From contig CALUHH010000002.1 of assembly GCA_944320385.1 (NCBI GenBank), positions 1 through 64,000 of the forward strand: 64,000 nt of DNA. The letters run 5' to 3'. Position 1 is the first letter of the stretch. Each line of letters opens with the position of its first letter. This document shows, in pieces, positions 11,675-23,447 of the stretch. The stretch is from an uncultured Atopobiaceae bacterium (lineage in GTDB: Bacteria > Actinomycetota > Coriobacteriia > Coriobacteriales > Atopobiaceae). The notes below the pieces were generated by a model. The model ran no database searches, was not told where the DNA came from, and saw only the letters and a list, made by a program, of their open reading frames with translations. Position numbers and translations under genes: made by a program.

Positions 11675-14600
11675 CTACTTGAGTGCCCGGCCGCTCTTCT
11701 CGGCCAGGTCGCGCAGGCGCTCGGACGCGGCGTCGACGTCGGCCCAGTCGGCCTGCCAGGACCAGTTGCCCTCGGCGACGCCGGGCACGTTCATCCGCGC
11801 GTCGTCATCCAGCCCCAAGACGTCCTGGAGCGGCATGATGACCACGTCGGCGTCGGACGCCAGCGCCTTGCGCGCGAGCTCGTCGGCCAGCACCACGGCC
11901 TCGTCGCCCTCGACGCCAAAGCGACTCTCGCAGAAGCCCACGAACGTCTGGTTGTCGTGCGTGCCCGTGTAGCAGACGGTCTCCGGACGCGGCGCGTAGC
12001 CGTCGCGCACGTCGTTGTCGGCGAACTGGACCACGTCCATGCCCGGGATGCCCGTCGCACAGACGAGCGCTCGCACGGCCGGGGTGATGGCGCCGAGGTC
12101 CTCCGCGATGAAGGGCAGCGGGCCAAACTGGCGATGCGCCGCCTCGAAGAGCTCCATGCCCGGGCCAAAGGAGTACGACCCCTCGGTCGCGGGCTTTCCC
12201 GCGGGGACCGAGAAGTACGAAGAGAACCCGATGAAGTGGTCGAGGCGCACGTAGTCGTAGAGCGCGAGCGCGCGGCTGAAGCGGCGCAGCCACCAGCCGA
12301 AGTTCTGCTCGCGCAGGATGTCCCAGCGATAGGTGGGGTTGCCCCAGACCTGGCCCTCGGGCGCGAAGGCGTCGCCGGGGGCGCCGGCCATGCGGCGCGC
12401 GTACCCATATTCGTCAAGATCGAAGATGTCGGGCTCGCTCCACACGTCGGAGGAGTCGCCCGAGACGTACATCGGCATGTCGCCGACGATCTGGACGCCG
12501 CGCTCGCGCGCGTACTCGCGCAGCTCGTTCCACTCGCGGTCGAACTCGTACTGCAGGCGCCGGTGGTTCTCGGCCGCCGCCGCGATGCGCGGGTTGCGCG
12601 TGTGACTGGGGCTGTAGTGGCGGTAGCGCGCAGGCCAGCACTGCCACGGGGCCCCGCCCAGCACCTCCTTGATGGCGCTGAAGATCGCGTAGGGCGTCAG
12701 CCAGTAGTCGTTCTCGCTGCAGAACTGGAGGTAGTCCTCGTTGTTGCCGATCTTCTCGAGGCGCTTGAGGACCGTCTCGACGTCATCCTCGAGCAGCGCG
12801 ACGTTGCCCGCGAACGCCGAGACGCCCGCATACGGGGAGCCGTACTCGTCGGTGGGGTTGACGGGCAGGACCTGCCAGTAGGTCTGGCCGCCCGCGGCGA
12901 GCCAGTCCACGAAGCGCCTGGCCGGCGCACCGAGCGTTCCGGGCTTGCCGTCGTTGGGGATGGAGGTGATGTGGCAGAGCACGCCCATGCCGCGGTCGAG
13001 CGGCTGCTGGAGGCGCTCGGGACGATGGAAGTGCAGCACCGCCGTGCCGAGCGGCCAGAGGAAGATCTCGGCCTGTCCGCCGCTCACCTTGGGCGTCTGC
13101 CCGGAGATGACGTCTGCGACGGCGTCGCCGACCATGGGGACCTTGACGGTGTGGGCGTTGGCGAGGCTGCCGTTGGCGAGCACGCAGACCGCCTCGTCCT
13201 TGTCGCGACGCCAGAAGCCAAAGATGTCCTCGCCGGAGGCGAAGGGCTCGAACTCGCCGTCCACGAACAGCGACAGCGTCTTGCGCACGGCGATGGCGTT
13301 GCGATAGATGTTGACGCAGTCCGCGCGGCCGCCGTCCCAGGGGAAGGGCGCGCGGTTGTACGGGTCGCGGAAGCCCTCGACGCCGCGCTCGTCACCGTAG
13401 TAGACGCACGGGACGCCCGGCAGCGTCATCTGCAGCAGAGCGACGACCCACAGACGCGCCATGGCAAGACCCGCCTGGTCGTCGCTCAGACGAAACGTCG
13501 CGCGCTCGCCCTCGGGCACGGAGTCGGGGTCGGGCGCGCCGCCGAGCATGGTGAACAGGCGCTCGCGGTCGTGGCTGCCGATGAGGTTGAGCGCGGAGTA
13601 GAAGTTGTCGCGCGGGTAGTTCTCGCGCAGCTGCTCGAGGCGGGCGGCAAGCTCGGACGCCCCGATCTCGCCGCGAATGAAGGCGAGAAGTCCCGTGCGA
13701 AGCGGGTAGTTCATCGTGCCGTCGAGCTCGGCCCCCTGGAAGTACTGGCGCAGCTTGCCGTAGGCGAGCTTGTTGGACGCGTCCTCCCAGACCTCGCCGA
13801 TGAGCACGCCGTCGGGCTTCTCGGCGAGAAGGGCGCGCTTGATCTGGGCGATGAACTCGTCGGTGAGCTCGTCGGCAACGTCCAGGCGCCAGCCACGGGC
13901 GCCGGAGCGCAGCCACCGGCGTATGACGCCGTCGCGCCCGCACACGAGCTCGTGGAACGGCGCGCAGTCGGCGCGGAAGCTCGGGAGGTTCTGGTCGCCC
14001 CACCAGCCGGCGTAGGTGCCGTCCTCGTTGAAGGTGAACCAGTCGCGATACGGCGAGCGCTCGCCCTGCCAGGCGCCGGGCTCGCGATAGGTGCCGAAGC
14101 GATTGAAGTAGCGCGAGTCGGCGCCGCAGTGGTTGAAGACGCCGTCCAAGATGACGGAGATGCCGTGCTCGGCCGCGTCAACGCACAGGGCGCGGAAGCT
14201 CTGCTCGTCGCCGAGCATGGGGTCGATGCGCAGGTAGTCGGCCGTATCGTAGCGATGGTTGCTCGCGGCCTCGAAGACGGGGTTGAGGTAGAGCACCGTC
14301 ACGCCGAGGCTCTCCAGGTAGTCCAGCCTCTCGCGGATGCCCTCGAGCGTGCCGCCGTAGAAGTCCCAGTACGCGATGCCGCCGTCCTCGGTCCGGGCGT
14401 AGGTCGGAGGGGTGTCCCAGTCCTCGACCAGCTCGCGGCCGGGGCCGCCCTTGCGCCTGATCGCCAGCGAGGCTTCGACGCGATCCCTCCAGTCGTCGCC
14501 GCGGGCAAAGCGGTCCGGAAAGATCTGGTAGACCACGCCCTCGCGGTACCAGCGGGGCTGGTTGGGCCGCGGCTGGTAGACTGTGATCTGAAACGACGGC

Positions 14601-14935
14601 GGGTCGCCATAGGTGAAGGCGCCCTCGCCGGTGGTCCAGCCCTCGCGCGCGCCGTAGCGCCACACGGCGCCGTCGCGCGCCTCGATGTCGAAGTTGTACC
14701 AGACGACGCCGGTCTCGACCGGCCTGTAGCTCGCCGTGAAGCGCAGATGGTCGCCCTCGTTGGTGCCGCGCATGTCGATGAGCTGCTCGCCGTGAGCGTC
14801 GGTCCAGACGCGCAGCGTGCAGAAGACGACGTCGTCGCCCCACACGTCTATGCTCAGCGAAACGGTGCCGCCCAACTGGACGGCACCGAAAGGACTTCTG
14901 TACTCCGGCTCTGAAGTGACGTGACGTGCTTTCAA
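11675..14935 (-). CDS. Bifunctional GH13 alpha-glucan hydrolase fused to GH77 4-alpha-glucanotransferase
   Basis: One 1086-residue frame holds two enzymes. Residues about 1-110 form a beta-rich N-terminal domain as in neopullulanases. The GH13 barrel follows with GWRLDVADEL (nucleophile Asp), VLIGEVWED (acid/base Glu) and NLIGSHDRER (transition-state Asp). From about residue 640 (GMGVLCHITSIPND) the protein is MalQ-like: VRLDHFIGF, PFIAEDLG and YTGTHDNQTF carry the GH77 catalytic acids. Together they would trim and rearrange maltodextrins released from glycogen. The start is TTG, 3 bp after the glgA stop, with AAGAGATAGGT upstream; the first Met lies well inside the N-terminal domain. It is the last gene of the glycogen operon. 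CGAGAAGAAC lies about 40 bp beyond its stop. Confidence 0.93.
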   Translation of the reverse strand: MKARHVTSEPEYRSPFGAVQLGGTVSLSIDVWGDDVVFCTLRVWTDAHGEQLIDMRGTNEGDHLRFTASYRPVETGVVWYNFDIEARDGAVWRYGAREGWTTGEGAFTYGDPPSFQITVYQPRPNQPRWYREGVVYQIFPDRFARGDDWRDRVEASLAIRRKGGPGRELVEDWDTPPTYARTEDGGIAYWDFYGGTLEGIRERLDYLESLGVTVLYLNPVFEAASNHRYDTADYLRIDPMLGDEQSFRALCVDAAEHGISVILDGVFNHCGADSRYFNRFGTYREPGAWQGERSPYRDWFTFNEDGTYAGWWGDQNLPSFRADCAPFHELVCGRDGVIRRWLRSGARGWRLDVADELTDEFIAQIKRALLAEKPDGVLIGEVWEDASNKLAYGKLRQYFQGAELDGTMNYPLRTGLLAFIRGEIGASELAARLEQLRENYPRDNFYSALNLIGSHDRERLFTMLGGAPDPDSVPEGERATFRLSDDQAGLAMARLWVVALLQMTLPGVPCVYYGDERGVEGFRDPYNRAPFPWDGGRADCVNIYRNAIAVRKTLSLFVDGEFEPFASGEDIFGFWRRDKDEAVCVLANGSLANAHTVKVPMVGDAVADVISGQTPKVSGGQAEIFLWPLGTAVLHFHRPERLQQPLDRGMGVLCHITSIPNDGKPGTLGAPARRFVDWLAAGGQTYWQVLPVNPTDEYGSPYAGVSAFAGNVALLEDDVETVLKRLEKIGNNEDYLQFCSENDYWLTPYAIFSAIKEVLGGAPWQCWPARYRHYSPSHTRNPRIAAAAENHRRLQYEFDREWNELREYARERGVQIVGDMPMYVSGDSSDVWSEPDIFDLDEYGYARRMAGAPGDAFAPEGQVWGNPTYRWDILREQNFGWWLRRFSRALALYDYVRLDHFIGFSSYFSVPAGKPATEGSYSFGPGMELFEAAHRQFGPLPFIAEDLGAITPAVRALVCATGIPGMDVVQFADNDVRDGYAPRPETVCYTGTHDNQTFVGFCESRFGVEGDEAVVLADELARKALASDADVVIMPLQDVLGLDDDARMNVPGVAEGNWSWQADWADVDAASERLRDLAEKSGRALK

Positions 14936-14938
14936 GCG

Positions 14939-16444
14939 CTACCTATCTCTTCTTTTGTTGTACCTGATGATCTCCGGGTGAAGACCATGGTAGATGTCCA
15001 TGTAGTCATTCGCGGCGCGGCGCCAGCTGAAGTCGGCGTCCATTGCCTGAAGCTGAAGCTTATGCCAAGTCTCCGGCTCCGTCCAGAAGATCTCGCAGGC
15101 ACCGAGGAGCGTGTCCGCCATCTCGTCGGCGTTCATGTTGGCGAACGAGAAGCCCGTGCCCTCGCCGGTGTACTTGTTGAACGGGATGACCGAGTCGCGC
15201 AGGCCGCCGGTCTCGCGCACGAGCGGCAGGGTGCCGTAGCGCATGGCGATCATCTGGGAGAGACCGCACGGTTCGAACTCGGACGGCATGATGAGGATGT
15301 CGCCGCCGGCGTACATGCGGTGCGAGAGGGCGTTGTCAAACGCGATGCGCGCGCACATCTGGTCGCCGTACTTGGCGTCGAAGTAGCGGAACGCGTCCTC
15401 GTGGTCCTTGTCGCCCGTGCCCAGGATGGCGACCTGCACGCCGCGCTGCATGAGGTGGTCCATCGCATAGCGCACCAGGCCCAGGCCCTTCTGGTCCGTG
15501 AGGCGCCCGATGGAGACGACGAGCGGGCGCGTGGGATCTTGGGCGAGGCCCAGTTCCTCCTGAAGCGCGCGCTTGCACTCGGCCTTGTTCTCGAGCTCCT
15601 TGGCGGAGTAGTTGGCCGGGATCATCGGGTCGGTCGTGGGGTTCCAGATGGACTGGTCGATGCCGTTGAGGATGCCGTGCAGGACGTCGCAGCGACGGCG
15701 GAAGATGCCGTCGAGGCCCTCGCCGTAGAAGGGCATCTGCAGCTCGCTGGCATAGCTCGGGCTCACCGTGGTGAGGCAGTCGGCGTAGCAGAGGGCGCCC
15801 TTCATGTAGTTGATGGAGTCACGGTCGCAGTAGAGCTGGTCGCGGGCTGCGGGGATGTGGGCCATCCCCAGAACCTCCTCGAGGACCTTGTCGCTGTACT
15901 GACCCTGGAACTTGACGTTGTGCACGGTGAAGATCGTCTTGACGTTGGCGCACTGCGGGATCTCCTGGTAGAACTCGCGCAGGAAGACGCAGCACAGGGC
16001 GGTCTGCCAGTCGTTGCAGTGCAGGACGTCGCACTCGAGCTCGGGAACCTTGGCGATGGCCTCGCAGATGGCCTTCGAGAAGAACGCAAAGCGCTCGCCG
16101 TCGTCAAAGTAGCCGTAGAGGCCGTCGCGCTTGAAGTAGGCCTCGTTGTCGATGAAGTAGAAGTCGAGGTCCTGGAGCGCGAGCTTCTCGATGCCGCAGT
16201 ACTCGTTGCGCCACGCGAGCGGCACGTAGAAGTCTGCGACGTGCTTCATCTGGTCCTTGTACTCCTGCGGGATGCTGGCGTACTTGGGCATGATGACGGC
16301 GGCGCGGGCGCCGGCGTGCTTGAGGGCGCGGGGAAGCGAGCCCGCAACGTCGCCCAGGCCGCCCGTCTTGGCAAACGGGACCGCCTCGGAGGACGCAAAG
16401 AGCACGCGAATCTTCCTGCGCTTGGCTTGTGTGGCCACGTTCAT
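14939..16444 (-). CDS. glgA: Glycogen synthase (ADP-glucose, GT5)
   Basis: A 501-residue GT5 enzyme. The N-terminal KTGGLGDVAGSLPRAL motif (near residue 26) binds the ADP-glucose phosphates, and the C-terminal half has PSEFEPCGLSQMIAMRYG with the GT-B catalytic Glu. It extends alpha-1,4-glucan chains using ADP-glucose from GlgC/GlgD, encoded just upstream. GAGGGG precedes the ATG. The gap to glgD is about 10 bp. Length and motifs are normal. Confidence 0.97.
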   Translation of the reverse strand: MNVATQAKRRKIRVLFASSEAVPFAKTGGLGDVAGSLPRALKHAGARAAVIMPKYASIPQEYKDQMKHVADFYVPLAWRNEYCGIEKLALQDLDFYFIDNEAYFKRDGLYGYFDDGERFAFFSKAICEAIAKVPELECDVLHCNDWQTALCCVFLREFYQEIPQCANVKTIFTVHNVKFQGQYSDKVLEEVLGMAHIPAARDQLYCDRDSINYMKGALCYADCLTTVSPSYASELQMPFYGEGLDGIFRRRCDVLHGILNGIDQSIWNPTTDPMIPANYSAKELENKAECKRALQEELGLAQDPTRPLVVSIGRLTDQKGLGLVRYAMDHLMQRGVQVAILGTGDKDHEDAFRYFDAKYGDQMCARIAFDNALSHRMYAGGDILIMPSEFEPCGLSQMIAMRYGTLPLVRETGGLRDSVIPFNKYTGEGTGFSFANMNADEMADTLLGACEIFWTEPETWHKLQLQAMDADFSWRRAANDYMDIYHGLHPEIIRYNKRRDR

Positions 16445-16454
16445 CCCCTCGATC

Positions 16455-17549
16455 CTAGTCGCGAGCCTTTTCCTTGATCAGCACGTCCTCGGGGGTGCCC
16501 CTGAGCTCGGTGCCGGCGGGAACGACGTTGCCGCGGTCGACGATGGCGTTCTCGACGCGCGCGCCGCTCTTGACGACGCAGCCCTGCATCACGATGGAGT
16601 TGCGCACCGTGGCGCCGGCCTCGACGATGACGTTGCGGCCCAGGATGGAGTCGCTGACGTTGCCGTAGATGCGGTCGCCGGAGGCGACGGCGGAGTGGCA
16701 CACGTGGCTGCCGACCTCGAACTTGGCGGGGGCGGTGTCGTGCGTCTTGGTCTTGATGAAGCGCTCCTCCACGAAGAGCTCGCCCGTGATGCGCGGGTCG
16801 AGCAGGTCCATGTTGGCACGGAAGTAGGCGCGCTTGTTGAAGATCGGCGCGACGTAGCCGTCGAAGTCGTAGGTGCGGATGTTCACGCGGCCGAAGTCGC
16901 CGGACATGGCCTCGAAGAGGTCGAGGTAGTCCGTCGCGGCGTACCAGTCGAACATGTCGAGCAGCAGGTGACGGTTGATCACGAAGCAGTCGAGGAACAT
17001 GGTCTCGCCGAAGGCGGTGCCGTGGTGGACGCCGCAGACGCGGCCGTCCTCGACGTCGAAGGCGGTGACGTCGGGGTCCTTCTCGGACGCGGTCTTGGTG
17101 AGGACGGTGATGTCCGCGCCGGAGGCCTTGTGGGCCTCGTAGACCTTGTCGAGGTCGATGTTGTACACGAAGTTGGCCGTCGAGAAGAACACGGCGTCAG
17201 AGGTGCTGCGCGTGAAGTAGGCCTTGTTGTGAACCAGATCGCGGAGCAGGAAGCGGGCGCCGGTGCGGGAGGTGCCGAAGGCGGAGCCGGGCAGGATGAA
17301 CAGGCCGCCGTTCTTGCGGTCGAGGTCCCAGTCCTTGCCGGAGCCCACGTGGTCGATGATCGAGCGGTAGTTGTACGGCATGACCATGCCCACGGTGCGA
17401 ATGCCGCAGTTCACGAAGTTGGAGAGCGCAAAGTCGACGAGGCGGTAGCGGCCGAAGTAGGGCAGCGACGCCATCGGGCGGCTCTCGTTGAGCGGGCTGG
17501 ACTCCTTGGCGGAGTAGTTGCAGGTAATAAGGCCGATGACCTTTTCCAT
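16455..17549 (-). CDS. glgD: GlgD, regulatory paralogue of ADP-glucose pyrophosphorylase
   Basis: A 364-residue nucleotidyltransferase-like protein. The N-terminus (VIGLITCNYSAKESSPLNE) lacks the GGQGSRL signature loop seen in the neighbouring GlgC, as expected for the non-catalytic GlgD subunit. The fold otherwise follows GlgC, with a C-terminal left-handed beta helix (NVSDSILGRNVIVEAGATV). In Bacillus-type systems GlgD forms a heteromer with GlgC and raises its activity. It starts 2 bp after the glgC stop, so the two are probably made together. Confidence 0.93.
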   Translation of the reverse strand: MEKVIGLITCNYSAKESSPLNESRPMASLPYFGRYRLVDFALSNFVNCGIRTVGMVMPYNYRSIIDHVGSGKDWDLDRKNGGLFILPGSAFGTSRTGARFLLRDLVHNKAYFTRSTSDAVFFSTANFVYNIDLDKVYEAHKASGADITVLTKTASEKDPDVTAFDVEDGRVCGVHHGTAFGETMFLDCFVINRHLLLDMFDWYAATDYLDLFEAMSGDFGRVNIRTYDFDGYVAPIFNKRAYFRANMDLLDPRITGELFVEERFIKTKTHDTAPAKFEVGSHVCHSAVASGDRIYGNVSDSILGRNVIVEAGATVRNSIVMQGCVVKSGARVENAIVDRGNVVPAGTELRGTPEDVLIKEKARD

Positions 17550-17551
17550 GA

Positions 17552-18700
17552 TTAGTTCTCCCCCTTCCCGACAACCACGTCGTTGCCGATGACGGCGGTG
17601 TCCTTGGTGGTGTCGACGCTGCCGACGCTGACGTTCTCCTCGACGGTGGAGTTCTCGCCCAGGATCGCGCGCACGACGTTTGCCCCGTCCTTGACGACGG
17701 CGCCCGGGAGCAGCACGGAGTCGATGACGGTGGCGCGCTCGCCCACGTAGGCGTCGGTCGAGAGGATCGAGTGCTTGACGGTGCCGTAGACCTGGCAGCC
17801 GTTGGCGATGAGGCTGTCGTCGATCGTGGCGTCCTTGCCCACGAACGCCGGCGGGCGCGTGGAGGAGTTGCTCATGATCGGGAACGTGGTGCTGAAGATG
17901 TCAAAGGCGGGGTTGGGGCCCAGCAGGTCCATGCTCGTCTCGTGGTAGCTCGAGATGGTGCCGACGTCGCGCCAGAAGCCCTCGAACTTGTAGGTGAACA
18001 GGCGCTTGCCGTCAGCCAGGAGCTTGGGGATGATGTCGCCGCCGAAGTCGTGGCTGGAGTTCTGGTCGTTGGCGTCCTCCTTCAGCGTCTCGACGAGAAG
18101 GTCGGCGTTGAAGATGTAGATGCCCATGGAGGCGAGGTTTGAATCGGGCTTCTTGGGCTTCTCGGAGAACTTGGTGATGCGGCCGTCGTCCTCGGCGGTC
18201 AGGATGCCGAAGCGGGAGGCCTCCTCCCAGGGCACGGGCATGACCGCGATGGTGAGGTCGGCGTTGTTCTTCTTGTGGGTCTCGAGCATGTCGTCATAGT
18301 CCATGCGGTAGAGCTGGTCGCCGGAGAGGATGAGGACGTACTCGGGGTCGTTGGTCTCGATGTAGCCGAGGTTCTGGGTCACGGCGTCGGCCGTGCCCTC
18401 GTACCAGGCGCCGCCGGTCTGGGTGGCGTAGGGCGGCAGGATCGAGACGCCGCCGCCGCGCTCGTCGAGGTTCCACGCCTCGCCGGTGCCGATGTAGCTG
18501 TGCAGCAGGTAGGGGCGGTACTGCGTCAGGACGCCCACCGTCGTGATGCCCGAGTTCGCGCAGTTGGAAAGCGCGAAGTCGATGATGCGGAACTTGCCGC
18601 CGAACGAGACCGCCGGCTTGGCGACGTTGCTCGTCAGCGCACCGAGCCTGCTGCCCTGACCACCTGCCAGGAGCATTGCGATGCACTCTTTCTTGCTCAT
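17552..18700 (-). CDS. glgC: Glucose-1-phosphate adenylyltransferase
   Basis: A 382-residue enzyme with the signature [16 protein letters not shown] at residue 8, [19 protein letters not shown], the substrate loop near [15 protein letters not shown], and FSEKPKKP. The C-terminus is a hexapeptide-repeat beta helix. It makes ADP-glucose from glucose-1-phosphate and ATP, the committed step of glycogen synthesis. Pgi, encoded elsewhere in the window, provides the link to glucose-6-phosphate. A hairpin (18729-18747) lies between it and glgP. Confidence 0.97.
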
Positions 18701-18758: not shown

Positions 18759-21191
18759 CTAAATGTGCCAGATGTCAGTCATGTACTCACGGATTGTTCG
18801 GTCAGAAGAGAAGTATCCGGCCTTGGCGGTATTGTGGAGCGCCGCCTTGTTCCACGCGGCACGGTCGCCGTAGAACTCGGTCAGCTCGTTCCACGCCTGG
18901 ACGTAGGAGTGGAAGTCGCGCATGACCAGATCCGGGTCGTTGTCGACCATGAGGTAGTCGTGGATGCTGTCGAAGTTGCCCGAGAGGCGCGCCAGCGAGC
19001 CGTCGGTGAGCATGTCGACGATGCGACCGAGGCGGTCGCGGTCGCCGTTGTACATGTCCCAGGCGTAGTAGCGGCCGGAGGCGCGCAGCGCCTCGACCTC
19101 GTCGGCGTGCAGGCCGAAGATCTTGATGTTCTCGGGGCCCACGAGCTCGGAGATCTCGATGTTGGCGCCGTCAAGGGTGCCGAGGGTGATCGCGGCGTTC
19201 ATCATGAGCTTCATGTTGGAGGTGCCGGAGGCCTCGGCGCCGGCCACGCTGATCTGCTCGGAGATCTCGGCCGCGGAGTAGATGAGCTGCGCGTTGGACA
19301 CCGCGAAGTTGGGCACGAAGGCGACCTTGATCTTGTCGTTCACGCGCTCGTCGCTGTTGATGACGTCGGCCACCGAGTTGATGAGGCGGATGACCTCCTT
19401 GGCGAAGGTGTAGCTCTGGGCGGCCTTGCCGGAGAAGATGAACGCCGTCGGGCGCGGGCTGTAGCTCGGGTTGCTGATGAGGCGGTTGTAGATGTCGAGC
19501 ACCTTGAAGACGTTGAGGAGCTGGCGCTTGTAGGCGTGGAAGCGCTTGACCTGCACGTCAAAGACCATGTTGGTGTCGAGCACGACGCCGGAGGTCTCCT
19601 TGACGTAGGCCGCCAGGCGCTCCTTGTCGGCCTTCTTGGCGACCTCCATGCCCTCGAGGAACGCGCTGTCCTGCTCGAACGGCACGAGCTTCTCGAGCTC
19701 CATGGCGTCATCGAGCCAGCCGTCGCCGATGGCCTCGGTGATGAGCTTGGAGTAGGACGGGTTGGCCTCGCACAGGAAGCGGCGGTGCGTCACGCCGTTG
19801 GTCTTGTTGTTGAAGCGGTGCGGCATCATGTCGTAGAACTCGTGGAAGACCGTGTCCTTGAGGATCTGCGTGTGCAGCGCGGAGACGCCGTTGATCGAGT
19901 GCGAGAAGATGATCGAGAGGTTGGCCATGCGGACCTGGCCGTCCCACAGGATGGCGGTCTTCTCGAGGACGCTGGTCCAGTTGCCGTCGTTGGGCGAGAG
20001 GTGCGTGGAGAGGTTGTCGCGGTAGCGGCGGTCGATCTCGTCGATGAACATGTAGAGGCGCGGCAGGAGGTTGCGGAAGGTGTTGATCGGCCACTTCTCC
20101 AGCGCCTCGGGCATGACGGTGTGGTTGGTGAAGGAGATGGTCTCCTTGCAGATCTTGTAGGCCTCGTCAAAGCCCACGCCCTTCTCGTCAACGAGGATGC
20201 GCATGAGCTCGGGGCCGCACATGGCGGGGTGCGTGTCGTTGGTGTGGATGGAGACGCGCTTGCCGAGGTTCTCCCAGTCCTGGCCGAACTCGCGCTCGTA
20301 GGTGCGCAGGATGGTCTGCAGGCCCGCGGAGACGAAGAGGTACTCCTGCTTGAGGCGCAGCATGCGGCCGTGCTCGCCGGCGTCGTTGGGATAGAGAATC
20401 GTGGAGATGGCCTCGACGTCGGAGCGGAACTTGTTGGCGCGGGCGTAGTCGCCGGCGTTGAAGGCGTCGAGGTCGAAGTCCTCGGTGTAGGGCTCGGCCG
20501 ACCACAGGCGCAGCTTGTTCACGACCTTGCCGCCAAAGCCGACGATGGGCACGTCGTAGGGCACGGCGCGGACGATCTCGCCGCCCTCCTGCGTGAACCA
20601 GAAGTGGCCGTTCTCCTCGTGGCGCACGACCTGACCGCCAAAGCGCACCAGCACCGAGCTGCCGTCCTTGCGGGTCTCCCAGGGGAATCCGTTGGCGAGC
20701 CAGTTGTCGGTACGCTCGACCTGACGGCCGCCCTCGATGTACTGGCGGAAGAGGCCGTAGCGGTAGCGCATGCCGTTGCCGTAGCCGGCGATGCCCTCGT
20801 GGGCCATGGAGTCGAGGAAGCACGCGGCCAGGCGGCCCAGGCCGCCGTTGCCCAGGCCCGGGTCGACCTCCTGGCGGCAAATCTCCTCGAGGTTGGCGCC
20901 CATGGACTCGACGCCCTTGGCCACGAGGTCGCGGATGCCGAAGTTGATCAGATAGTTGTCGAGCAGCGGGCCGATGAGGAACTCGAGGGAGAAGTAGTAG
21001 ACCTTCTTCTCGTCCTTGGTGTGGGAGCTCGTCTGGATGGCGCGCGCCTTGCTCGCGATGAGCTCGGCCAGGACGTAGAACTGCTCCTGGCTGCTGCACT
21101 CCTCGAACTTGGAGCCGTACTTCGTCATGCAGGCCTCGCGATACTGCTCGATGAAGTCCTGCTCGTTCTCAAAGATCTTCTCGGTAGCCAA
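18759..21191 (-). CDS. glgP: Glycogen/starch phosphorylase
   Basis: An 810-residue GT35 enzyme. The PLP-binding region [16 protein letters not shown] lies near residue 660, and the glucan-site motif [19 protein letters not shown] near residue 110. It releases glucose-1-phosphate from glycogen. The start is TTG with GAGGAGATG upstream; an ATG four bases upstream is out of frame. It is second in the operon after glgB, so synthesis and breakdown genes are transcribed together. Confidence 0.97.
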
Positions 21192-21326: not shown

Positions 21327-23447
21327 TTACTCCTCCGAAGCCTTCTTACGCGCTCCTGACTTCTGCGCGGACGCCTTCTTGGCCGCGGGCTTCTTCGTGG
21401 AGGTCTTGGTCGCCGCGGTCTTGGTCGCCGTCTTGGCCGCGGTCGTCTTTGCCGCGGTCTTCTTGGCCGGGCGGCGCAGGGCGCCGGTGCGCTTGAGAAT
21501 CATGCCGGCCAGCGGCGGGACGCGCACGACGATGGACTGCTCGCGGCCGTTCCACGGCTCGTCCTGGCACTTGATCTTGCCGGTGTTGATGACGCCGGAG
21601 CCTCCGAAGCGCTCCTCGTCGGAGTTGAAGAGCTCCTCGTAGACGCCCCACTCGGGCACCCCCATGCGGAAGTCCTCGCGCGCGTTGACGTCAAAGTTGA
21701 TGAGGATGACGAGCTCGTCGCCGGGCTTGTCGCCCTTGCGGACGAAGGTGACGATCGACTGGTCGGTGTTGTCGGCGTCGATCCACTCGAAGCCCTCGGA
21801 CTCGAAGGCGCGCTGCCACAGCGCCGGGTGCTCGTTGTAGAAGCGGTTGAGCGCGCGCACGTAGGTCTGCTGGTGGCGGTGGGTCTCGTACTGCTCCGCG
21901 AGGAAGTACTGGATGGCCTCGTAGTAGCGCCACTCGATGAACTGCGCGATCTCGTTGCCCATGAAGTTGAGCTTGCCGCCGGCGTGCGTCATCTGGTAGA
22001 AGGCGAGGGCCCTCATGCCGGCGAACTGACGCCAGTAGTCGCCGGGCATGCGCGTGATCAGCGAGCACTTGCCGTTGACGACCTCGTCGTGGGAGAGCGG
22101 CAGGATGAAGTTCTCGTTGAACTGGTACATCGTGGAGAACGTGAGCATGCGATGGTTGCCGGGGCGCCACGGGAAGTCGGTCTGCATGTAGTGCAGGGTG
22201 TCGTTCATCCAGCCCATGTCCCACTTGAAGTGGAAGCCCAGGCCGCCGTTCTCGGGCGGGTAGGTCACGAGCGGCCATGCCGTGGACTCCTCGGCGATCA
22301 TCATGACGTCGGGGTAGAACTTGCCCATCGCGGCGTTGGTCTGGCGGATGAACGCGGAGGCGTTGAGGTCCTCCTCGGTGCCCTTCTCGTTGAAGCGCTT
22401 CTGACCCGGGTCGTCAATGCCGAAGTTCATGTAGAGCATGCTCGAGACGCCGTCCATGCGGATGCCGTCGGCGTGGAAGCGCTCGGCCCAGTACAGGGCG
22501 TTGGAGACGAGGAAGCTTCTGACCTCGCCGCGCGAGTAGTCGAACTGGTGGGTGTTCCAGTTGGGGTGAATCTTGTGCTCGTAGAGCATCTCGCCGTTGA
22601 AGGTGGCGAGGCCCTCGGAGTTGGCGCAGAAGCCGCCCGGCACCCAGTCGAGGATCACGCCGATGCCGGCCTTGTGGCAGGCGTCGATGAAGTGCATGAA
22701 CTGCTTGGGGTTGCCGTAGCGCGAGGTCGCCGCGAAGTAGCCCGTGGGCTGATAGCCCCAGGAGCCGTCGAAGGGGTGCTCGTTGACCGGCATGACCTCG
22801 ATGTGGGAGTAGCCCATGTCCTTGACGTAGGCCACGAGCTCCTCGGCGAGGTCGTCATAGGAGTAGACGACGCCGCGCTGCGCGGGGAACGGGTCGCCGG
22901 GGCCGGGGTAGGTGCCGTCCGGGCGGGGGTCGCCCTGGGGCTCGTCGCCGTGGCGGCGCCAGCTGCCCAGGTGCACCTCAAAGATGTTGAGCGGCTCCTT
23001 GAACATGTTGCGGTCGGCGCGCTTCTTCATGTAGGCGCCGTCGCCCCACTTGTAGCCGGCGAGGTCGAAGGTGCGCGACGCCGTGCCCGGGATCTTCTCG
23101 GCGTAGAAGCCGTAGGGGTCTGCCTTGTAGAGCTTCTCGCCCTTGGCGGAGACGATCAGGTACTTGTAGAGGCACTCGCCCTCGATGCCGGGGACGAAGC
23201 CCTCCCAGACGCCGCCGGTCTCGGTCTGGGTGAGCGGGGTCGCCGCCTCGTCCCAGCCGTTGAAGTCACCGATGACATGAACGCTCTGCACGTCAGGGGC
23301 CCAGACGGCAAAGTGATAGCCCTTCGTGCCGTCGTCCGTCTGAGCGGGGTGCGCGCCCATCTTCTCGTAGCTGCGGTACCACTCGCCGCGAGCGAACAGG
23401 AACAGGTCGTCGTTGCTCAGGTAGAGCGTGCTGTCGAGAGCTTCCAT
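21327..23447 (-). CDS. glgB: 1,4-alpha-glucan branching enzyme with Lys/Ala-rich C-terminal tail
   Basis: A 706-residue GH13 branching enzyme. After an N-terminal CBM48-type domain (GYHFAVWAPDVQSVHVIGDF) the barrel carries RMDGVSSMLY near residue 333 (nucleophile Asp), MIAEESTAWP near 385 (Glu) and LPLSHDEVV near 453 (Asp). The enzyme itself ends around residue 655. The last 50 residues are almost only Lys, Ala, Thr and Ser with repeated AAKT and KK units, like histone H1 or the tails of actinobacterial HU proteins. Such a tail is unusual on GlgB and could bind DNA, RNA or polyanions. It is the first gene of the glycogen operon. Confidence 0.96.
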   Translation of the reverse strand: MEALDSTLYLSNDDLFLFARGEWYRSYEKMGAHPAQTDDGTKGYHFAVWAPDVQSVHVIGDFNGWDEAATPLTQTETGGVWEGFVPGIEGECLYKYLIVSAKGEKLYKADPYGFYAEKIPGTASRTFDLAGYKWGDGAYMKKRADRNMFKEPLNIFEVHLGSWRRHGDEPQGDPRPDGTYPGPGDPFPAQRGVVYSYDDLAEELVAYVKDMGYSHIEVMPVNEHPFDGSWGYQPTGYFAATSRYGNPKQFMHFIDACHKAGIGVILDWVPGGFCANSEGLATFNGEMLYEHKIHPNWNTHQFDYSRGEVRSFLVSNALYWAERFHADGIRMDGVSSMLYMNFGIDDPGQKRFNEKGTEEDLNASAFIRQTNAAMGKFYPDVMMIAEESTAWPLVTYPPENGGLGFHFKWDMGWMNDTLHYMQTDFPWRPGNHRMLTFSTMYQFNENFILPLSHDEVVNGKCSLITRMPGDYWRQFAGMRALAFYQMTHAGGKLNFMGNEIAQFIEWRYYEAIQYFLAEQYETHRHQQTYVRALNRFYNEHPALWQRAFESEGFEWIDADNTDQSIVTFVRKGDKPGDELVILINFDVNAREDFRMGVPEWGVYEELFNSDEERFGGSGVINTGKIKCQDEPWNGREQSIVVRVPPLAGMILKRTGALRRPAKKTAAKTTAAKTATKTAATKTSTKKPAAKKASAQKSGARKKASEE

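Follow-up and report, generated by a model that had tools for sequence, protein, structure and literature searches.

Tail-type tethers that tie a storage body to the chromosome are known, according to published accounts, for PHA and polyphosphate granules. In the phasin PhaF of Pseudomonas putida and in PhaM of Ralstonia eutropha, a basic C-terminal part is reported to bind DNA non-specifically and to set the position and inheritance of the granule, and the H1-like C-terminal domain of AlgP of Pseudomonas aeruginosa, composed of K/P/A repeats, is described as required for even spacing of the storage granule. In HBHA of Mycobacterium tuberculosis, a lysine-rich C-terminal region is described as needed for DNA binding and, separately, for the formation of lipid inclusions, and the protein is classed there as nucleoid-associated. 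Glycogen of E. coli, according to a published study, excludes nucleoid and polysomes, accumulates at the old cell pole and passes unequally to the daughter cells; the E. coli work calls for perturbations that break glycogen condensation but not synthesis. The available text of a review of tail-type tethers covers PhaM, PhaF and AlgP and does not mention glycogen. Storage tethers with H1-like tails are already known, while among the matches listed from open-licence papers neither a lysine-rich GlgB tail nor such a tail within any glycogen enzyme was met.

The window considered here, i.e. the whole 64-kb stretch of DNA that was analysed, carries a glycogen operon in the order glgB-glgP-glgC-glgD-glgA plus a gene for a GH13+GH77 fusion, with the branching enzyme gene glgB standing first (Table 1); in a composition check, the five further proteins of the operon all end without a K/A tail (0/5). 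GlgB scores above three curated NCBIfam equivalog cut-offs (PRK05402, 795.3 versus 741; PRK12313, 793.1 versus 577; TIGR01515, 728.2 versus 464), and an alignment of 29 GlgB proteins shows no variation at D332, E386/E387 and D454, which we take to be the catalytic Asp/Glu/Asp. Judged by its sequence, the protein is a complete branching enzyme with intact catalytic motifs. The core ends at residue 652-654 in the NCBIfam and PDB alignments; the solved GlgB structures (5gqz/5gqu, 1m7x, 3k1d and others), which belong to the same enzyme family and cover GlgB residues 6-654, have alignments that stop at query residue 654 or earlier, and none aligns to the tail. Besides CBM48 and the alpha-amylase families, no other Pfam family was matched in GlgB at E<=0.001; the N-terminal part is CBM48 and GH13, and neither PF00216 (Bac_DNA_binding, the HU/HupB domain) nor a phasin- or AlgP-type N-terminal domain nor the HBHA N-terminal domain is among these matches. 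The closest named GlgB is that of Olsenella sp. An293 (96% in tblastn, 98% over the core), and Thermophilibacter provencensis is among the near relatives by GlgB, which places the window in Atopobiaceae.

Table 1. Features of the glycogen operon and of a second tailed protein; coordinates are positions in the window unless a locus is named.
Feature	Coordinates	Strand	Description	Evidence
GlgB ORF	21327..23447	(-)	706 aa	open reading frame
GlgB catalytic core	21492..23447	(-)	residues 1-652: CBM48, GH13 alpha-amylase, alpha-amylase_C; net -33	domain matches, NCBIfam
GlgB C-terminal tail	21330..21491	(-)	K/A/T-rich, residues 653-706, 54 aa, net +15	composition, AlphaFold2, census of relatives
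RRPAKK motif	21459..21476	(-)	residues 658-663, core/tail junction; proximal motif in most genus members	sequence comparison
glgB stop codon	21327..21329	(-)		
glgP	18759..21191	(-)	glycogen phosphorylase, next operon gene after glgB; without K/A tail	domain/family matches
glgC	17552..18700	(-)	ADP-glucose pyrophosphorylase; without K/A tail	domain/family matches
glgD	16455..17549	(-)	GlgC-like subunit; without K/A tail	domain/family matches
glgA	14939..16444	(-)	glycogen synthase; without K/A tail	domain/family matches
GH13+GH77 fusion	11675..14935	(-)	debranching/amylomaltase type, 1086 aa, last in operon; without K/A tail	domain/family matches
PF00756 esterase-like protein P0002	L154:7681-8985	(-)	own genome contig C29	pattern screen, Pfam

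The tail of GlgB (residues 653-706, RTGALRRPAKKTAAKTTAAKTATKTAATKTSTKKPAAKKASAQKSGARKKASEE) consists to 81% of K, A, T, S and P and to 24% of K. The window has 297 ORFs of 100 aa or more, which together yield 59,019 segments of 54 aa, and only segments overlapping the tail combine a KATSP share of 75% or more with a K share of 18% or more. The initial annotation had placed about 50 residues made 'almost solely' of K, A, T and S from position 21327 onwards; a K/A/T-rich tail is indeed located there, but that wording omits four Arg and a few G, Q, E, P and L, and the first three nucleotides are the stop codon, the tail proper occupying 21330-21491. The H1-like character attributed to it is borne out by composition, disorder and the preponderance of K over R. 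Lys codons are AAG throughout (13/13 in the tail, 26/26 in the core), and the tail has a GC3 of 0.91 versus 0.96 for the core, a likeness which argues that the tail is ordinary translated sequence. In an AlphaFold2 model run on 29 sequences (mean pLDDT 75.7, pTM 0.80), residues 663-706 have pLDDT <50 and are all coil, i.e. this part of the tail is predicted to be disordered.

A disordered Lys/Ala/Pro(Thr)-rich C-terminal domain, the mark of PhaF/AlgP-type tailed proteins, is present in GlgB as judged by composition and the AlphaFold2 model. Like PhaF and PhaM, GlgB acts in storage and ends in a basic region, but while these proteins are described with a granule-binding N-terminal part and act in PHA storage, GlgB has an enzyme core and acts in glycogen storage, and the likeness considered here is one of composition. 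AlgP shares the H1-like C-terminal domain, but belongs, as published, to polyphosphate granules and combines a 154-aa KPAA array with another N-terminal domain, whereas the GlgB tail is 54 aa long and T-rich. HBHA shares a lysine-rich C-terminal region but, in its published description, is no enzyme, serves also as a surface adhesin and has a different N-terminal domain. By analogy with these accounts, the closest functional analogues of the GlgB tail would be the H1-like tails of three proteins that all have to do with storage bodies, namely PhaF, AlgP and HBHA.

The tail might have been absent in all relatives and the product of a local repeat expansion, as the initial annotation had considered; instead, when sought in GlgB of related genera, it was found across genera of Atopobiaceae and Coriobacteriaceae. 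A K/A/T tail, defined as at least 30 aa with at least 65% KATSP and at least 20% K+R, is present in 141 of the 160 complete glycogen-operon GlgB orthologues, which come from these two families and, in one case, from another. For this census the 3' ends of 164 orthologues were read (121 from the family of the window, f1, 42 from family f10 and one from f2), of which four were dropped as they ran off the contig or the stretch examined; f1 matches ending before the 3' end, G112, and the f10 matches G212, G245, G251, G267 and G278 are omitted. GlgB itself, with the paralogue counted in, is matched at E<=1e-100 in 136/140 genomes of the window's family and in 102/197 drawn from the order. The 141 tails are 33-200 residues long and carry a net charge of +8 to +43 (median +21), with a mean composition of 28.7% A, 25.0% K, 12.2% T, 8.7% P, 7.2% S and 5.0% R. 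The 19 orthologues below the cut-off comprise nine with a mixed tail of 35-99 aa and ten with 9-29 aa; several of them are short yet basic, and L198, L222 and L318 have K/A tails just under the cut-off. The tail is apparently missing in L266/L082 (Atopobium fossor), L037, L270 and L325, which suggests that it is dispensable in some lineages.

The GlgB paralogues of the same families, 31-38% identical to the core in the window over the matched part, end 0-10 aa past the core and none of the 20 examined has a K/A tail (Fisher p 4e-16 against the orthologues, the sequences being only in part independent), so that the tail belongs to one enzyme and is no habit of the fold. This contrast by itself says nothing on the ligand; DNA, RNA and polyphosphate are indistinguishable by sequence.

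Among 80 named loci, of which L061 reaches its contig end within the tail and L095 is truncated within the core, the Coriobacteriales GlgBs have K/A/T tails of 34-201 aa with the exception of Atopobium fossor (L082), while most Bacillota GlgBs end at most 36 aa past the core without such a tail; the clostridial GlgBs L104 and L108, together with L102 just under the cut-off, carry K/A tails of 54-79 aa. On a GlgB tree of 80 rows (79 named loci and the window, L095 being left out; a quick tree with a midpoint root only), the tail label requires four changes by parsimony versus 26.8 with shuffled labels, and the tailed loci form one Coriobacteriales clade besides the separate clostridial cases L104 and L108. 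Similar tails appear to have arisen separately in a few Clostridia. On the same quick, midpoint-rooted tree the Coriobacteriales glycogen-operon GlgB branches beside tail-less Oscillospiraceae GlgBs, an adjacency which suggests transfer between phyla.

With respect to selection, dN/dS over 45 non-overlapping close pairs is 0.25 for the tail and 0.11 for the last 150 core residues. Within the tails of these pairs, K<->E occurs at 9/602 sites and K<->R at 12/602, whereas A<->T occurs at 86/912, in counts that treat the sequences as independent, which is true only in part; A<->T and K<->E both need A<->G at codon position 1, and lysines of the core change more often (51/247) than those of the tail (47/602). 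Overall, both lysine exchanges are less frequent than A<->T by a factor of about 5-12. As misalignment between repeats could inflate A<->T, strict DNA-aligned blocks were scored as well (33 pairs; K<->E 6/433 and K<->R 3/433 versus A<->T 51/670; p 1.2e-6 and 1.2e-8). The contrast persists in these blocks and also with identity-only scoring (K<->E 7/577 and K<->R 11/577 versus A<->T 74/873), and the only seven gap-free pairs point in the same direction without reaching significance (K<->E 1/110 versus A<->T 7/172, p 0.16; K<->R 3/110, p 0.75). Rare lysine changes next to frequent A<->T exchanges suggest that tail length and the A/T/S/P filler drift while lysine number is held; on these substitution patterns, the tail is kept by selection, with constraint on lysine.

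The DNA of the tail contains imperfect tandem repeats of 12, 15 and 27 bp, 63-83% matched, which makes repeat slippage plausible as a mutational source and shows how length can change. A nearly neutral, low-complexity extension that grows and shrinks by slippage without function would agree with these repeats, with the length range of 33-200 aa and with the fast drift of the A/T/S/P positions, but is improbable in view of the tail dN/dS of 0.25, of the retention of lysine while Ala and Thr are freely exchanged by an A<->G change of the same kind, and of the presence of the tail in 141/160 orthologues versus 0/20 paralogues.

The main rival to a tether is electrostatic scaffolding on acidic proteins, in which the tail would bind acidic surfaces of GlgB or of other glycogen enzymes with nucleic acid uninvolved, either holding the synthetic machinery together or keeping a strongly acidic core soluble. 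The GlgB core in the window has a charge of -33 versus +15 for the tail, core and tail charge are correlated at r -0.56 over 42 named loci with basic tails, and tailed cores, with a median charge of -37 (n=42), exceed untailed ones (-17, n=36) in acidity. Within Coriobacteriales, however, core and tail charge are only loosely correlated (Spearman -0.30, p 0.066, n=39), the tail-less Atopobium fossor core is equally acidic at -40, tail length varies over 33-200 aa with no charge compensation to match (net sum -37 to 0) and a similar tail is found on an unrelated protein, the PF00756 esterase-like protein. Such scaffolding is rather unlikely on this balance.

It is likewise unlikely that the polyanion is other than the chromosome, with GlgB docking on RNA/polysomes or polyphosphate, so that glycogen would be made close to ribosomes or within bodies of polyP and glycogen together. 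The affinity of H1-like tails for any polyanion speaks for such a target, as do the published precedent of AlgP, a polyP-granule protein, a MAG contig (L061) on which the GlgB tail reads on into a MetRS-type tRNA-binding domain, and a putative GatB of G032 with a K/A tail; but L061 stands alone and its junction lies at the end of a contig, and 0/30 loci with that domain match GlgB. The G032 protein (L138:1-2208), which we take to be GatB (Asp/Glu-tRNA amidotransferase subunit B), has a very long K/A-rich tail.

In L061 (4960-5236), the K/A tail of GlgB runs in frame into the start of the MetRS-type C-terminal tRNA-binding domain (TIGR00399, E 9e-10), within which the contig ends. This domain gives 54 matches in 52/140 genomes of the window's family, and a six-frame GlgB BLAST of 30 of these loci, in only some of which the neighbouring domain was read, found GlgB beside it in none; among the other 24 matches, G112:C2:2-172 looks like the L061 contig itself. 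A GlgB-tRNA-binding fusion was set aside as a single case at a contig end with no recurrence in the 30 loci, and L061 is probably an assembly join, the fusion being unproven. A MetRS linker as the source of the L061 end finds no support either: the PF01588 matches in Atopobiaceae looked like PheT, and the DNA of the L061 end matches only itself among the loci compared.

That the tail acts at the surface or after secretion, as a moonlighting adhesin for heparin/glycosaminoglycan or mucin in the manner of HBHA, is very improbable, although the lysine-rich C-terminal repeat of HBHA is described with adhesin, lipid-body and DNA-binding roles and several of the tailed strains are, by their record titles, of gut or rumen origin: the gene sits in a cytoplasmic glycogen operon, and the GlgB family matches begin close to the N-terminus, where no extra domain precedes them.

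A second protein with an H1-like tail and an unrelated fold, the PF00756 esterase-like P0002 (G000 contig C29), was found by pattern screen. The pattern KK[SPTA]3KK, a narrow screen, matches GlgB, the esterase-like protein and a PRC-barrel-like protein in G000, while the reversed pattern has 0 matches in 8 genomes; in the own genome, the GlgB tail alone (E<=10) matched just itself and the pattern KKxAKK has 0 matches. The third of these proteins (L147:640-1629; own genome contig C2 near 169332), presumably of PRC-barrel type, has a short basic K/A-rich stretch near the C-terminus. The esterase-like protein is matched in 33/60 relatives, and in the 30 loci examined (L326-L355) all 28 complete ones are tailed (121-249 aa, net +19 to +48). 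Its nucleophile elbow GxSxG is changed to GxDxG in 29/29 genus members, with Ser in two copies from other genera. Asp nucleophiles are known in some alpha/beta-hydrolases, so that GxDxG alone is no proof of lost activity, and the protein is a candidate either for a pseudo-enzyme turned nucleoid protein or for an Asp-nucleophile hydrolase.

The HU/IHF family (PF00216) was matched at E<=0.01 in 0/60 Coriobacteriales genomes (G000-G059), whereas 10/14 control genomes match. A tailed GlgB and a tailed esterase-like protein where no HU was found are a reason to look at H1-like tails as possible nucleoid elements of the order. A wider proposal, which we regard as doubtful, is that Atopobiaceae and Coriobacteriaceae, in which HU was not found, use H1-like tails grafted onto GlgB and onto a Ser->Asp esterase-derived protein as nucleoid-binding elements, and that the GlgB tail would keep glycogen intermixed with the nucleoid and let both be passed on together, contrary to E. 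coli, where the glycogen phase excludes the nucleoid.

The reading to which we lean, although tentatively and without treating it as established, is that GlgB is an intact acidic branching enzyme with a selected, disordered H1-like tail which tethers nascent glycogen to a cellular polyanion. The cationic tail would bind this polyanion without sequence specificity, nucleoid DNA being the likeliest and RNA/polysomes or polyphosphate possible, and as GlgB is bound to nascent glycogen, the tail would tie the glycogen particles to it. Tethering to nucleoid, RNA or polyphosphate is plausible by analogy with the published roles of H1-like tails; GlgB would be the glycogen counterpart of PhaF/PhaM in PHA storage or of AlgP in polyphosphate storage, except that here a biosynthetic enzyme itself carries the anchor. 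Such a tether would counter the exclusion between glycogen and nucleoid, and many small, spread glycogen particles with even inheritance would be expected rather than a polar nucleoid-excluding condensate as in E. coli.

By the same analogy, gut bacteria of the Olsenella and Collinsella type may tie their glycogen to the chromosome via the GlgB tail. A conserved cationic GlgB tail would make glycogen positioning genetically separable from synthesis, as removal of some 50 codons should spare branching and alter only the position, size or inheritance of glycogen.
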